Of a stretch of DNA of 64,000 nucleotides, positions 3,696-43,406 are shown in pieces; the first letter of the stretch is position 1; each line of letters opens with the position of its first letter. Both the position numbers and the translations under genes were made by a program. Source of the DNA: Brevundimonas albigilva (GTDB lineage Bacteria; Pseudomonadota; Alphaproteobacteria; Caulobacterales; Caulobacteraceae); contig NZ_CP097298.1 in NCBI RefSeq assembly GCF_023503965.1, forward strand, positions 3,016,501 through 3,080,500, written 5' to 3'. Under the pieces are notes generated by a model. The model made no database searches. It was not told where the DNA came from and saw nothing but the letters and a program-made list of their open reading frames with translations.

Positions 3696-4580
3696 TCAGC
3701 CGCGTTGCGCGCGCGCCGCCTCATAAAGCGCCACGGCGGCGGCGTTGGAGACGTTCAGGCTCTCGAAGCCGCCGGGCATGGGAATCTTGGCCAGCACGTC
3801 GCAGTGTTCGGCCACCAGGCGGCGGATGCCGTCGCCTTCCGAGCCCATGACCAGGACGGTCGGCTGGGCGTCCAGGGCCTCTTCCAGGGTCTGCTCGCCC
3901 GCGCCGTCCAGACCGACGGCGCGCCAGCCCAGGTCCGCCAGCCGTTCCAGCGCGCGGCTGAGATTGGTCACGCGGGCGTGCGGCAGGCGTTCGGTGGCGC
4001 CGACCGCGGCCTTGGCCAGGGCGCCGGCCAGGGCGGGGGCGTGACGGTCCTGCACCACGATCCCGCGCGCGCCGAAGGCCAGGGCCGAGCGGAAGATGGC
4101 TCCCACGTTCTGGGGGTCGGTCAGCTGGTCCAGCATGACGATCACGCCCTGCGCGGGTTCGGCAAGGTCCTCCAGCGCCACGCCTTCCAGCGGCTGGACC
4201 TTGAAGGCCAGGCCCTGGTGCACCGCCCCGGGCGGCAGCATGCGGGTCAGGGCCTGGGGATCGATCGTCTCGATGCGATGGCCGTGGGCCAGATCGCCGG
4301 CCTCGATCTCGGCCGCGCGCTCGGGCGTGGCCAGCAGCCGGCCGGTCCCGCGCCGGGCGGGATTCGCCAGAGCGGCCAGGACGGGGTGCCGGCCCCAGAG
4401 GAAATTGTCGGCGTCGGCCCGGCCTCGCTCGGCGCCGCGCGCAGGACGCGGCGCCTCTTCGCGGGCCGCAAACCCTTTGCCGGCGGGCTTTTCTGCCCGG
4501 TCTCGAGGCGCGCCGGGGCGGCCGGCGAAGGCCTGTTTTTTACCGCTTTTACGGTCGTTGCGTTCTGATTTCGACGACAC
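3696..4580 (-). CDS. rlmB: SPOUT-family 23S rRNA (guanosine-2'-O-)methyltransferase RlmB
   Basis: 294 aa. After a basic low-complexity N-terminus (about 55 residues), DNFLWGRHPVLAAL begins the substrate-binding domain. The SPOUT domain shows all knot motifs: LDQLTDPQNVGAIFRSA, VMGSEGDGIRRLV and IPMPGGFESLNVSNAAAVALYE. The family methylates the ribose of G2251 of 23S rRNA. I chose the GTG at 4580 because GGAGG lies 10 bases upstream and the open frame beyond it runs antisense through tRNA-Tyr. It is divergent from the tRNA genes; the 150 bases between hold no gene. Confidence 0.92.
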   Translation of the reverse strand: MSSKSERNDRKSGKKQAFAGRPGAPRDRAEKPAGKGFAAREEAPRPARGAERGRADADNFLWGRHPVLAALANPARRGTGRLLATPERAAEIEAGDLAHGHRIETIDPQALTRMLPPGAVHQGLAFKVQPLEGVALEDLAEPAQGVIVMLDQLTDPQNVGAIFRSALAFGARGIVVQDRHAPALAGALAKAAVGATERLPHARVTNLSRALERLADLGWRAVGLDGAGEQTLEEALDAQPTVLVMGSEGDGIRRLVAEHCDVLAKIPMPGGFESLNVSNAAAVALYEAARAQRG

Positions 4581-36768: not shown

Positions 36769-37260
36769 ATGGCTGACACCGCTGAGACCGTGAAGAAGAC
36801 CGCCGACCAGGCGACCGCCGCCGCGACCTCGGCCGCCGCCAAGGCCAAGGCTCAGGCCGAGACCTTTCAGGCCGCCGGCGCCAACGCGTTTCGCGAAGGC
36901 ATCGACAAGTCGGTTGCGTCGATGGGCGAACTGAACGCGCACGGCAAGAAGAACCTGGACGCCCTGGTCGAGTCGGCCGCCGTGGCCCAGAAGGGCGCCG
37001 AGGCCCTGTCGCAACAGGCGATGGGCTTCGCCAAGGCTTCGTGGGAAGACGGCGTCGCCGCCAGCAAGGACCTGTCTGGCGCCCGTTCGGTGCAGGAGTT
37101 CTTCGAACTGCAAACCACCTGGGCCAAGAAGGCGATGGAACGCTACGTCGCCGAACTGTCCAAGACGAACGAGATCGTCACCACGACCGTCAAGGATAGC
37201 TTCAAGCCGATCAACGAGCGCGTGACCGCCTCGGTCGAGACCTTCCAGGCCGCGCGCTGA
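36769..37260 (+). CDS. Phasin family protein
   Basis: 163 aa, Ala/Lys-rich, almost entirely helical with amphipathic segments (residues 1-40 and 60-160); contains SVQEFFELQTTWAKKAMERYVAEL, typical of the phasin_2 domain. Phasins coat polyhydroxyalkanoate granules. No PHA synthase is in this window. Single-gene unit with its own promoter, operator-like palindrome and terminator. Confidence 0.9.
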   Translation: MADTAETVKKTADQATAAATSAAAKAKAQAETFQAAGANAFREGIDKSVASMGELNAHGKKNLDALVESAAVAQKGAEALSQQAMGFAKASWEDGVAASKDLSGARSVQEFFELQTTWAKKAMERYVAELSKTNEIVTTTVKDSFKPINERVTASVETFQAAR

Positions 37261-37285: not shown

Positions 37286-37313
37286 GGCCCCGGCGGAATC
37301 GCCGGGGCCTTTT
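37286..37313 (+). terminator. Intrinsic terminator of the phasin gene
   Basis: Perfect 10-bp stem GGCCCCGGCG / CGCCGGGGCC, loop GAAT, then TTTT. The IS1595 element inserted inside its T tract; the target duplication starts at 37311. Confidence 0.9.
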
Positions 37314-37318
37314 CATTT
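37311..37318. repeat. Target-site duplication, left copy
   Basis: TTTCATTT, identical to 40061-40068 immediately beyond the right inverted repeat. Eight bases is the length known for IS1595-family insertion. Confidence 0.92.
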
Positions 37319-37341
37319 GGCGTATGCGTATTTGACAAACC
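37319..37341 (+). repeat. Left terminal inverted repeat of the IS1595-family element
   Basis: 23 bp beginning GGCGTATGCGTATTTGAC; matches the reverse complement of 40038-40060 at 22 of 23 positions. Confidence 0.93.
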
Positions 37342-37350
37342 TGTGGACCG

Positions 37351-37545
37351 CTAGTCGCGGTGGAGGCAGTGGTCGCAGAGGCTAACTTCGCCAATGTGGC
37401 CCTCATGTAGCGGGAACGACCGGCCACAATGGATGCACTCTGCTGTTGGGCCGACGCAACTCCTCGGCCTAACGTCTTTCGCCAGGTCCGCCGCCTTCCG
37501 TCGATCGGCCTCGGCCTCGCGCTCTTTGTCGCTAAACCCGCTCAC
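37351..37545 (-). CDS. Passenger gene: small zinc-ribbon-like protein
   Basis: 64 aa with two CxxC pairs (CIHCGRSF and CDHC) 21 residues apart in the second half, suggesting one structural zinc site; N-terminal half is charged. GTG start at 37545 overlaps the upstream stop (GTGA). It ends 10 bases from the left inverted repeat. Function unknown; possibly nucleic-acid or protein binding. Confidence 0.65.
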   Translation of the reverse strand: MSGFSDKEREAEADRRKAADLAKDVRPRSCVGPTAECIHCGRSFPLHEGHIGEVSLCDHCLHRD

Positions 37546-37691
37546 GGCTTTTTTTCGGCTTCCGGCTTCGGCGCGGTCGCTACCCGCCGCACCTTCTCTT
37601 CAAAGGCGGCTTCGTCCTCGTCGCACTCTAGCTCGCGCGCAAGTTCGCGGAACTTGTCCGCCTGGGTCTTGGGGTCAGCGTCGGGTCGCAC
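37542..37691 (-). CDS. Passenger gene: small conserved acidic protein
   Basis: 49 aa, helical and charged, with KFRELARELECDEDEAAFEEKVRRVA. Similar short proteins with this core are common as hypothetical genes in alphaproteobacteria and their phages. The GTG at 37691 follows GGTGG and overlaps the end of the DUF1828-type gene by 17 bases; a longer version from 37748 overlaps further and looks less natural. Function unknown. Confidence 0.6.
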   Translation of the reverse strand: MRPDADPKTQADKFRELARELECDEDEAAFEEKVRRVATAPKPEAEKKP

Positions 37692-38460
37692 GTTTCGCCA
37701 CCTTGTCCAAGACTTCGACCAGGACCCTCGCACCATCCCAAGTGCCAAGCTCTAGGTCGCTGTTCATTGCTCTCGATTGGGTTCGTATGCTCACACGCTT
37801 CGTGTTCGTCTCTTGATAGATCAGGAACGGAATCACGTTTTCCTCCCCCTTCAGCTCCAGCTCCTTCGAAAGGAGGACCGCCTCAAGAGCGCGGTGTTCG
37901 GTTATCCCGGCAAAGATGGCTACGCGTCGCCCGCTCTTATGCTTGACCAAAACGTCGACAACGTAATCTTTCAGGCCCTCAGCCGCTGGCTCGTCGACGC
38001 CGATGTCGGCCTCCGCCCCGAACCTGTCCGCCAGCGCCGCTACGAGATCATCGCGGAACGTACTGGCGACCCTGTCGCGCGTCGTGAAGACCATGTCCTG
38101 CAGGCGGTGCATAAAGGCGAGGAAGCGTGCCGCTCCTTCACCGGCCTGCTGCCCCGACAACCAAGCCGTCTGGAAACGCATCGCCACTTGGTCGAACTCG
38201 ACCCCGTGCTCTTCCATCAAGCCGCTGAGGATTCCGAGGCGGGTGTCGGTAGAGAAGTCTACCCCCGCTCCCTCAAGCTCCGCATAGGAGGCGGCGTCGT
38301 CCTCGATACGGACGCGACCGCCGTCAAGGCGCGCGTAGAACGTGAGGGCGTCGCCGGTAAACCATGTAAATGGGGAACGGATTGCGTACCCCATTTTCAA
38401 CCTGCGAACTTCAAATCCCCCACAGAGGGCTTCGCAAATGTCGTCCTGAATATTCAACAC
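37675..38460 (-). CDS. Passenger gene: DUF1828/DUF1829-type protein
   Basis: 261 aa. Residues 1-95 match the DUF1828 pattern: a D-T/D-x-F-Y strand, GGRVRIEDDAASYAELEGAG, then a helix with ILSGLMEEHGVEFD. Residues 120-250 match the linked DUF1829 region (FRDDLVAALADRF, DYVVDVLVKHKSGRRVAIFAG). No catalytic motif is certain. Start is GTG at 38460, overlapping the stop of the upstream gene, with GGGAGG in front. DUF1828 proteins tend to occur on mobile DNA; a defence, immunity or toxin-antitoxin role is possible but unproven. Confidence 0.7.
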   Translation of the reverse strand: MLNIQDDICEALCGGFEVRRLKMGYAIRSPFTWFTGDALTFYARLDGGRVRIEDDAASYAELEGAGVDFSTDTRLGILSGLMEEHGVEFDQVAMRFQTAWLSGQQAGEGAARFLAFMHRLQDMVFTTRDRVASTFRDDLVAALADRFGAEADIGVDEPAAEGLKDYVVDVLVKHKSGRRVAIFAGITEHRALEAVLLSKELELKGEENVIPFLIYQETNTKRVSIRTQSRAMNSDLELGTWDGARVLVEVLDKVAKRATRR

Positions 38461-38930
38461 AAGCCTCCCTGTTCTTCGAAGCGATAACGCTTGGCTGCGA
38501 TGGAAAGAGCGTTGGCCTTTGTGACCGGAAAATCCTCACTCCAACGTTTACCGCCGGACTTGGGCCACCCCACCATGCGGTTTTTATCGCGAAGCACGTT
38601 AGGAAAAGTTTCCCACACATTACCCTTTATCAGGTGGCAGTGCCAGAGCTTGTGCGATGTGTGTAGTTCATGGTGACACAGAACCAAGCAGCCCTTCTGA
38701 TGGTCCAACGCGAGTACTGCCGAGAACCGTTCTGTCTCTTCGCTGAGAAGGATCAGGACGCGGTAGTGCTCACCCAGCGCGTCAAACTCCACCAGCCGCC
38801 AATCCCAAGATGGGCCGTATTTAAGGGCGCGCCCCAGCGGCAATGCAGCATTGGGCACCTTCCCAGACTTCCACGGCCCAATCTGCACATTGGATTTTGG
38901 CGCGCGGATAATGTCCACCAAAGTCAGCAT
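38454..38930 (-). CDS. Passenger gene: hypothetical protein, 158 aa
   Basis: I do not recognise this protein. It is soluble, with many Trp and His residues and a CHHELHTSHKLWHCHL stretch that could bind a metal. Start ATG at 38930 follows GGGAGG at 7 bases; an upstream ATG at 38951 lacks this. It overlaps the DUF1828-type gene by 7 bases, so the two are likely to act together. The lower GC content marks it as foreign to this genome. Confidence 0.6.
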   Translation of the reverse strand: MLTLVDIIRAPKSNVQIGPWKSGKVPNAALPLGRALKYGPSWDWRLVEFDALGEHYRVLILLSEETERFSAVLALDHQKGCLVLCHHELHTSHKLWHCHLIKGNVWETFPNVLRDKNRMVGWPKSGGKRWSEDFPVTKANALSIAAKRYRFEEQGGLC

Positions 38931-39024
38931 TGTGCCCCTCCCATGCGACAACGTTAGGTCGGGCGGACGAGCTACCGCAAGTCGATCTTACTTTGACCTC
39001 CACCTCGCCCTTCGCTTCTTGCCA

Positions 39025-39996
39025 CTAGGCGGCGGTCGCGGCCCGGATGTCAGTCCGTCGGTAGGTCAGGCGCTTGCCGACGCCACCCAGCACGGCGCGC
39101 AGCGCGCGCTCCTGATCCTCGCAGCCAGTGGCCGAGCGATTGGAATAACGGAAGTCGAACTCCGCCAGATAGCGGTGCAGGTGCTTCTTCGAGCAGTGCT
39201 GATAGACGCCCTTCATGCCGCGCTTGAAGATCGAGAAGTAGCCTTCGATGGTGTTGGTGTGGATGGTGCGGTCGTCGGTCGAGACGTATTCGTCCTGACC
39301 GTGGCGGACCATGCCGTGCTCCGCGAACTGACGACCGACCGCCAGATAGTGACCGGCTTCGTCGGTCATCAGGCGGGCTTCGCGGTGCAGGTTGTCCAGC
39401 ACGATGGGGGCGATGGTGGCGGGGCGGATGTTGTCCACCACGACCGAACGGACTTGGCCAGTGGAGCGGTCCACCAGCGAGAGCACCTTCATCTTGTGGT
39501 GGAAGGCGCGCTTGACCGGCTTGCCGGGTTCGCGGCCGATGTAGGTTTCATCGACCTCAACAGCGCCGCCACCCTGACCGAAGGGAGCCAGATCACCAGA
39601 GCGCATGGCCTCGCGGATGCGGTGGGCCAGGAACCACGCGGTGTTGTACTGGACTTCGAGGGTGCGTTGCAGCTGTAGGGCGCTGATGCCCTTCTTCGAG
39701 GCGCACATCAGGTAGATCGCCTGTAGCCACTTGTGCATTTCGAGGTGGCTTTCCTCGAAGATCGTGCCCTTGCGAACGGTGAACTGGCCACGGCAGGCGC
39801 CGCACTTTTTGAGGCCGTGGCGAACCACGCCTTCCGGGTTCTTCTTCGAGGGCTTCGAGCGCACGTTCTTTAGGGCATAGGCCCGACCCACGACGCCGCA
39901 ATGCGGGCACGTCGGCTCCGAACCCCAGATGATACCTTCGACGTAAGCGAAGGCAGCGGCTTCATCGTGGAAATAGGGCTTGGACAGAACGGACAC
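39025..39996 (-). CDS. IS1595-family (ISXO2-like) transposase
   Basis: 323 aa from the GTG at 39996, preferred because AAGGAG lies 8-9 bases upstream; a TTG at 40047 inside the right repeat would lengthen it. N-terminal zinc ribbon: CPHC (after EPT) and CGAC. Catalytic domain: EVDETYIG (first Asp), LMTDEAGHY (second Asp), and TNTIEGYFSIFKRG (third block of the ISXO2/IS1595 DDE-type fold). Frame is intact, so the element may be active. Confidence 0.93.
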   Translation of the reverse strand: MSVLSKPYFHDEAAAFAYVEGIIWGSEPTCPHCGVVGRAYALKNVRSKPSKKNPEGVVRHGLKKCGACRGQFTVRKGTIFEESHLEMHKWLQAIYLMCASKKGISALQLQRTLEVQYNTAWFLAHRIREAMRSGDLAPFGQGGGAVEVDETYIGREPGKPVKRAFHHKMKVLSLVDRSTGQVRSVVVDNIRPATIAPIVLDNLHREARLMTDEAGHYLAVGRQFAEHGMVRHGQDEYVSTDDRTIHTNTIEGYFSIFKRGMKGVYQHCSKKHLHRYLAEFDFRYSNRSATGCEDQERALRAVLGGVGKRLTYRRTDIRAATAA

Positions 39997-40037
39997 GGCG
40001 GGTTTCTCCTTACCAGACCAACCTACCATTTCGTATG

Positions 40038-40060
40038 GGTTTGTCAAATACGGATACGCC
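40038..40060 (-). repeat. Right terminal inverted repeat of the IS1595-family element
   Basis: 23 bp, reverse complement of the left end with one mismatch (22 of 23). Confidence 0.93.
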
Positions 40061-40068
40061 TTTCATTT
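40061..40068. repeat. Target-site duplication, right copy
   Basis: TTTCATTT, identical to 37311-37318. Its reverse complement carries the TGA stop codon of the SnoaL-like gene, so the insertion left that stop in place. Confidence 0.92.
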
Positions 40069-40585
40069 GGCTTCTGGCTCGGCGACCTGTGGGGATAGCG
40101 CCTCATGGTGGATGCTGAAGGCGCGCGCCAACCGCCAGCGCCCGTCGCCTTCCAGCCGCCACAGCACCGAGAACCGCGCCTGGCCGACCAGGCGTTCGGG
40201 GCCGTCGCCCTGGCGTTCATAGACGATGGCGGCCTTCCTCGACCGCGCCGACGCCGGGGATGGCGTAAACGCGCATCGTGCCGGGTACGAGTTCGCGCCG
40301 CGAATGATAGGCTTGCGGACCCGTCGCGGCTTCGCAAGCCTGGCGATAATCCTGGACGAAGGCGGTCCGCGTCGCCGTCAGGCCGCCCCGGTCGTGGTAG
40401 AATTCGAGATCCTCCGTCACCAGGTCCGACAGGGCCTGCGGATCGCAGCGGTCGAACATCACTGCGAAAAGGTCAGCGTCGCGCGCGGCGACGATCGTCG
40501 TCAGTTCGGCCGGATCGGGCAAGGCGGCGGGGCCGGTCGCGGATTGGCCCAGTGTCAGGACCGCGAGGGCGGATGTCAGCAGCAT
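40063..40585 (-). CDS. SnoaL/DUF4440-like secreted protein (one frameshift)
   Basis: Signal peptide (MLLTSALAVLTLGQSATG) then an NTF2-like fold: VMFDRCDPQALSDLVTEDLEFYHDRGGLTATRTAFVQ in parts, and C-terminal VLWRLEGDGRWRLARAFSIHHE. The frame breaks near 40232-40240: the upstream frame ends at EEGRHRL, the downstream one continues AIVYERQGDGPERLVGQ. Two missing bases (or one extra) explain it; reconstructed length about 174 aa. The stop lies within the IS target duplication. Role unknown; members bind small molecules or hydrolyse them. Confidence 0.75.
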
Positions 40586-40761
40586 GGCGGGGCGTCCTTG
40601 TCGAACGGAATGTCGCACCGTGGTGCGGCCTGGCGACGCGGAAGTCGCGTGAAACTTTGTTCACCCGGCCTGCTCACGAAAGCCGTGACTGGACGCCGCT
40701 TCAAATCAGGCCATCATTCCCTATCTGAGAGCCAAGACGACTCCCCGATTACGGAATACGA

Positions 40762-41091
40762 ATGCCCATTCAAAGGCCCGGTGAAACGGGCGGCGGCCAA
40801 GGCGCCGCCACCGTCACCGAAACCAAGCCGAAGCTTCAGAAGCCCTCGCTGTACCGGGTGCTGATCCTGAACGACGACTACACGCCGATGGAATTCGTCG
40901 TCTATGTGCTGGAGCGGTTCTTCCAGAAGAGCCGCGAGGAAGCCACCCGCATCATGCTGCATGTGCACCAGCATGGCGTCGGGGTGTGCGGCGTCTTCAC
41001 CTACGAAGTCGCCGAGACCAAGGTCGCCCAGGTCATCGAGACCGCGCGCCGCCACCAGCATCCGCTGCAATGCACGATGGAAAAGGACTGA
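40762..41091 (+). CDS. clpS: ATP-dependent Clp protease adaptor ClpS
   Basis: 109 aa. Conserved core [25 protein letters not shown] (in parts), with the hydrophobic pocket for N-degrons, and [21 protein letters not shown]. Delivers N-end-rule substrates to ClpAP. It is 13 bases upstream of clpA in an operon, as in Caulobacter. Confidence 0.96.

Positions 41092-41104: not shown

Positions 41105-43406
<2,302 letters not shown>

Follow-up and report, generated by a model that had tools for sequence, protein, structure and literature searches.

The window analysed here is a stretch of 64,000 nucleotides from the Brevundimonas albigilva contig NZ_CP097298.1, in which positions 37319-40060 form an intact 2.7-kb element of the IS1595 family of insertion sequences (ISs). 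Its terminal inverted repeats (IRs) occupy 37319-37341 on the + strand and 40038-40060 on the - strand; they agree at 22 of 23 nt, and the two arms are 96% complementary over this length. An exact 8-bp target-site duplication, TTTCATTT, flanks them at 37311-37318 and 40061-40068. The transposase gene (39025-40047, - strand) encodes 340 aa from a TTG start that lies inside the IR, with an ATG six codons further in. Its product scores above cut-off against PF12762 (DDE_Tnp_IS1595; 113.7 bits, cut-off 27), PF12760 (the N-terminal transposase zinc ribbon; 38.3 bits, cut-off 25.4) and NF033547 (193.5 bits, cut-off 75). Transposase, repeats and duplication assign the element to IS1595 and bear out the original prediction of a complete element with an intact transposase and genes that transposition does not need. 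When the whole window was scanned for exact 8-bp duplications combined with IRs of at least 18/24 at a spacing of 1-4.5 kb, this element was the one pair recovered; three base-shuffled windows yielded 0, 0 and 0 pairs. A genome search found a single copy of the element. Its GC content is 60.4%, compared with 68.3% for the window.

Four further genes, here called A to D, lie between the IRs on the - strand and overlap head to tail by 7, 17 and 4 bases, as had been predicted. A (38454-38930, 158 aa) is the first gene of the cargo module; it had been described as an unknown protein, and no family among the Pfam, NCBIfam, PADLOC and PHROG models matches it. B (37675-38460, 261 aa) is the second gene. 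It had been called a DUF1828/DUF1829-type protein, of which the first half stands: B exceeds the gathering cut-off for DUF1828 (PF08861; 39.1 vs 22 bits) and shows nothing for DUF1829 (PF08862) at E<=1. B also matches phrog_5059 (2e-24). C (37542-37691) encodes an acidic protein of 49 aa, or of 68 aa with an upstream TTG at 37748. D (37351-37545) is a 64-aa open reading frame (ORF), earlier described as zinc-ribbon-like; a CxxC-x16-CxxC motif is readable in its sequence, and its match to a zinc-ribbon model (12.8 bits) is far under the cut-off of 30.8. No D homologue occurs among the other elements and loci compared. Passengers A and B lie between the ends and are known elsewhere without a transposase, which places the element among the transporter ISs (tISs). 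These are IS1595 members with passenger genes, such as ISNha5 with its transcription regulator (Siguier et al. 2009, via the available part of PMC11891212), in line with the earlier statement that passengers are known in this family.

The element is inserted behind the gene at 36769-37260, a phasin gene according to the earlier reader. The end of this upstream gene, used as a query, finds matches in 61/61 genomes of the genus, some at its terminator-like end only. Relatives had been proposed as the place to look for empty sites at the phasin terminator, and 29 congeneric loci were fetched for comparison. In 28 of them the downstream gene (at 40762 in the window, clpS-like by eye) lies within ~1.4 kb of the upstream gene, which leaves no room for a 2.7-kb element; L123 has no match to the downstream gene near the upstream gene. 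The terminator even runs directly into the neighbouring gene in L110 and L114, with nothing between. These empty sites agree with a past insertion and mark it as a late event.

A recurrent two-gene module

A and B constitute a recurrent module of two overlapping genes, found at nine loci including that of the window. The other settings are stand-alone pairs, a second intact IS1595 element, a position beside a broken IS1595 transposase, a viral contig and a phage. Searches with A, or with a three-row profile of A, covered 385 genomes of the class, 398 of the phylum and 249 of the order and were positive in 4, 3 and 2 of them, respectively, with the genome of the window in each count. Apart from the window's own genome and G346 (discarded, see below), the positives are G051, G138, G425, G528 and G836, each with a B gene directly downstream of A on the same strand. 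A B profile was positive in 7 of 372 class genomes: the window's own genome, G051, G138 and G015 reach at least 285 bits, each with A upstream (in G015, split by a frameshift), and the weaker places (45-77 bits, in G364, G065 and twice in G261) are all without A. Single-protein scans were empty for A in genomes of the species, for A and B in viral contigs and for plasmid records; the homologues came from profile searches and phage records. A match of A in G346 was discarded, as it contains internal stops and hidden Markov models show no A or B in the surrounding 16 kb.

An association with IS1595 exists at three of the nine A-B loci, and at two of these the element is intact. The second intact element, in G138, is 2522 bp long with an IR of 22/24 and the duplication CATATTTC; its transposase faces A-B, whereas that of the window element is parallel to A-B. 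The window A and B are closest to a stand-alone Azospirillum pair (52 and 55% identity) and only 24 and 23% identical to the G138 pair; the two transposases are 48% identical. The transposase in G425 is in two pieces and lacks a start, and a single end-like sequence was seen there. A-B stands alone in chromosomes at L009 and L014. No transposase of the IS1595 kind lies near A-B in L009, L013 and L014, the loci that this search covered, with L024, L079 and L086 outside it.

A-B is also present on the IMG/VR contig L079. When A and B were each searched against 50,697 phage records, both matched one and the same record, that of Rhizobium phage RHph_N28_2 (A-B at L086 3495-4789). There, an S24-family repressor gene directly precedes A on the same strand, and A and B share four bases. 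The position behind the repressor gene is a usual site of lysogeny-expressed immunity genes. Invariant residues among six A proteins include E88, H90, H97 and H99 (ExH...HxH), all of which are kept in the phage copy. More distant DUF1828 genes have other arrangements: in L025, L026 and L027 a different small partner of a third kind (~155 aa) lies upstream, and L028 encodes a DUF6978-DUF1828-DUF1829 fusion protein. The L025-L027 partner has His-rich motifs, and that of L026 corresponds to phrog_27326.

Exchange of cargo among sister elements

Relatives of the window transposase (E<=1e-40) occur in 27 of 149 genomes of the family, the window's own included; the sample examined with its surroundings comprised 20 of the other 32 matches. 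Thirteen of these 20 loci combine an exact duplication with an IR of at least 18/24; the elements so defined are all 2133-3577 bp long, of which 1.2-2.6 kb lies outside the transposase match. In L067 and L075 the IRs are near-perfect but the duplication is shifted or imperfect, and L078 has IRs only. Among the 23 loci scanned for ends, five (L012, L063, L064, L074 and L077) have no convincing ones. Seven plasmid elements (L080-L085 and L094) measure 1869-3816 bp, with an exact duplication in four (L083, L084, L085 and L094).

Their cargo is varied. The element of a congener (L059, 2203-5779) carries both genes of PD-Lambda-5 (A and B of that system, 1e-177 and 5e-117), an experimentally validated anti-phage system according to the available part of PMC9519451. 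A Mesorhizobium plasmid element (L094, 3410-7225) carries a related pair, with a D12 methyltransferase match at 2.8e-17 and a partner protein 31% identical over 271 residues to that of L059. Other cargos include a DUF3800 protein that is also PDC-M04A (L060), a PemK/MazF toxin (L070), DUF433 with a DUF5615 PIN protein (L071), and genes annotated as PIN-domain (L083) and VapC (L085). Weaker signals are an AbiEi-like match in L068 (E 0.001) and Cas2-like matches, weak or under cut-off, in L072 and L080, the latter in an 88-aa ORF. The cargo of L081 was considered as a diverged A-B and dropped; its DUF1829 match is sub-threshold (0.018) and the profiles are silent.

Nine distant IS1595 elements (30-37% identity) served as controls. 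Three are plain and ~1.2 kb long (L087, annotated as ISRm32, L092 and L093), three have cargo-sized ends (L090, L095 and L096), and the remaining three are without convincing ends. The ends of L096 (2795-6001) enclose an annotated HipA-family toxin gene and a helix-turn-helix gene, so toxin-type cargo extends beyond the IS1595 lineage of the window. L095 contains a 173-aa ORF at 3979-4500 that scores 21.4 bits for Cas2 against a Pfam cut-off of 23.8 and looks VapD-like by eye.

A transposase tree of 37 sequences, from which L084 is missing, shows that cargo has been exchanged among elements and differs between close transposase relatives. A-B occurs in both main branches (L001; L010 and L012), as does the PD-Lambda-5-type pair (L059; L094). 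The closest sampled neighbour of the window transposase is L060 (support 0.96), yet the cargo there is the DUF3800 protein.

Protein C and the transposase lineage

Homologues of C occur, in two subtypes, in elements with unrelated cargo. With profiles built from 18 sequences, C was found in 23 of the 25 elements whose ends could be mapped, always between those ends and irrespective of cargo. The held-out plasmid elements have it in 7/7 cases, as subtype I in L081 (1e-12), L082 (2.1e-12), L080 (1.5e-11), L085 (4.5e-11) and L083 (1.9e-4) and as subtype II in L084 (1.9e-7) and L094 (1.9e-5). L065 (E 0.014) and L078 (E 0.28) gave weak C matches only and were excluded from the orientation table; L074 gave no C match. 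None of the nine distant controls has C below E 0.1. The strand of C relative to the transposase is the same in 12/12 elements of one subtype and opposite in 11/11 of the other. The subtypes sort with the two main transposase branches, the exception being L083 (subtype I), which branches below both; some deep splits of the tree are poorly supported (0.52 and 0.56). In some elements, such as L067 and L070, a longer ORF runs antisense to C and overlaps its frame, so single cases of C are weaker than the C family as a whole. This distribution suggests that C is a constant companion of the transposase lineage and probably a part of the vehicle rather than of the A-B cargo, to which the original prediction had assigned it as a 49-aa acidic protein.

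C could instead be cargo itself, for example an antitoxin or regulator common to many toxin modules with no part in the transposition machinery. Subtype I C occurs at 20 places in 17 of the 149 family genomes; ten places are on contigs with a transposase match, and the other ten, at nine loci, are on contigs without one, with a transposase remnant at one locus only (L152). By eye, the neighbours of C in L152, L153 and L155 resemble DUF3800 genes, a parallel to the L060 element. These orphan loci speak for the cargo reading. However, IR-like ends occur at eight of the nine (11 hits over 67 kb), with none in 101 kb of control loci or in the window outside the element, and this suggests that C stems from such elements and can remain after their loss. 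With its many different cargos, its strand fixed by subtype and its subtype following the transposase tree, C appears unlikely to be cargo.

The original prediction also had A-B-C-D as one cargo operon whose products work together. The head-to-tail overlaps fit such an operon, and in the G138 element, too, C follows A-B in the same orientation. Nevertheless, A-B is linked elsewhere without a transposase, and no match to C below E 0.1 turned up at six of its loci (L009, L013, L014, L024, L079 and L086); C travels with unrelated cargo and D is known from the window element only. Joint action of the four products thus seems highly improbable. Unlinked occurrence of the four genes elsewhere, which the prediction had named as evidence against itself, is true in part: C occurs apart from A-B, and A and B stay linked.

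Possible functions of A-B and of the element

On balance, gene content and comparison make it probable that the window element is a tIS chassis, composed of transposase and C, that carries a likely toxin-antitoxin or anti-phage pair, A-B. The transposase, the IRs and the target duplication define the unit inserted behind the gene at 36769-37260. A would be the effector, with ExH...HxH as a candidate metal or catalytic site, and B its partner, restraining A and sensing the trigger. C may serve the vehicle, in transposition or its control, and D could be an accessory ORF. The host might retain the element for phage protection by A-B or through addiction to it, and the transposase would spread A-B.

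Several findings point to such a defence-type role of A-B: the PD-Lambda-5, PemK, DUF433 with DUF5615 PIN, PIN, VapC and DUF3800 cargos of related elements, the phage copy directly after the S24-family repressor gene, and the relations of B to PDC-M24, a phage defence candidate of PADLOC that consists of DUF6978 and DUF1828/DUF1829 proteins. B matches PDC-M24B weakly (7.2e-14, over residues 25-144 only and with no curated cut-off shown), and L028 joins DUF6978, which is PDC-M24A, to DUF1828-DUF1829 in one fusion protein. The likeness lies in two adjacent genes of which the second has DUF1828; unlike PDC-M24, A-B has no DUF1829 match in B and no PDC-M24A match in A. HipAD / DS-6, a validated system, likewise has two genes, a HipA kinase and a DUF3037-DUF1829 partner from the DUF1828/DUF1829 family neighbourhood (available part of PMC13092281), and a second study found that deleting the DUF3037 protein that accompanies a HipA kinase was toxic (available part of PMC12548924). 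A has no kinase match and B has DUF1828 rather than DUF1829 or DUF3037. In defence, DUF1829 or DUF3037 proteins thus serve as HipA kinase partners (same sources). PD-Lambda-5, carried by close sister elements (L059, with a related pair in L094), is methyltransferase-based, and no search made links it to A-B.

The structure model of B has a mean predicted local distance difference test score (pLDDT) of 82.5. Its N-terminal half resembles type III secretion chaperones (1ry9_A, Z 8.7, root-mean-square deviation (rmsd) 3.4, 111 aligned residues) and also 8q8o_B (Z 9.1, rmsd 3.6, 120 aligned). A chaperone-like B beside a small effector A would fit the proposed holding in check. Residues 130-261, the C-terminal half, resemble PD-(D/E)XK nucleases (8bao_A, Z 10.1, rmsd 3.6, 123 aligned; 9ibq_A, Z 9.8, rmsd 3.0, 124 aligned). 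These Z values are only moderate: Rab GTPases score ~8 over the same region, and the best Foldseek E is 6.5e-3. By eye, A-I-F at 181-183 seems to replace the usual (D/E)xK. Sequence searches of solved structures gave none for B and two hits for A (E 0.14 and 0.18).

Other results weigh against this assignment, most of them concerning A. In addition to its lack of a protein family, A does not match PDC-M24A up to E 10 in PADLOC and has no detectable kinship to the L025-L027 partner protein of the more distant DUF1828 genes (hhalign probability 0.2%). Its model is weak (pLDDT 68.2; 51.8-63.7 for the other four models) and without a clear fold match: Foldseek finds nothing at E<=0.001 in PDB or BFVD, and the best Z is 5.8 (5jql_I, rmsd 3.6, 82 aligned), which does not make the fold a new one. 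Much of the cargo of sister elements is without assigned function. The control L090 (2789-6698) encloses annotated universal-stress and SulP (sulphate-transporter-type) genes, so IS1595 cargo is not all defence-like.

A-B might alternatively be a regulatory pair of phages or mobile elements, acting for instance on lysogeny or element copy number. The adjoining repressor gene in the phage and the lack of an assigned function for phrog_5059 would suit this role; the stand-alone chromosomal copies at L009 and L014, the match of B to a candidate-defence family and the defence and toxin cargo of sister elements argue against it, and we consider it fairly unlikely.

Tn3-family transposons with toxin-antitoxin passengers are a comparable combination of a transposon chassis with addiction cargo. 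They differ from the window element in a far larger chassis, a resolvase and an unrelated transposase. The element shares its transposase family, IRs, 8-bp duplication and passengers inside the repeats with known tISs; what sets it and its relatives apart from tISs as described in the available part of PMC11891212 is A-B, the presence of PD-Lambda-5 and toxins as cargo, and C as a constant constituent. Searches of the open-licence literature, with ISfinder outside the comparison, yielded no description of A-B as a module, of defence or toxin genes as recurrent cargo of this IS1595 lineage, or of C as its constant companion. Passengers in IS1595 being already established, the surprise would be validated defence cargo, its exchange between lineages and a fixed companion C.

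A more far-reaching proposal, which we regard as speculative and doubtful, is that this alphaproteobacterial IS1595 lineage could work as a cargo platform of minimal size. Its chassis would be fixed, consisting of transposase and C (C in two co-evolving subtypes of fixed orientation), and would swap anti-phage and toxin cassettes, with A-B as a new anti-phage system and C as a new transposition or cargo-acquisition factor. Phages, plasmids, integrative elements and larger transposons are regarded as the main carriers of defence modules. Here, a chassis barely larger than its transposase carries them singly, with a validated system among the cargo, and could offer defence genes a simple route beyond defence islands. 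IS1595 ends and C could also provide a search handle for further two-gene systems such as A-B.

Beside the insertion, the adjoining gene at 40044-40618 (- strand) is broken across two frames. Further on, a ClpA-like ORF (by eye; 41239-43299, + strand, 686 aa) has an unusual arginine/serine-rich C-terminal tail. The genome is a single contig with 89% completeness, and assembly indel errors may be the source of all three features.

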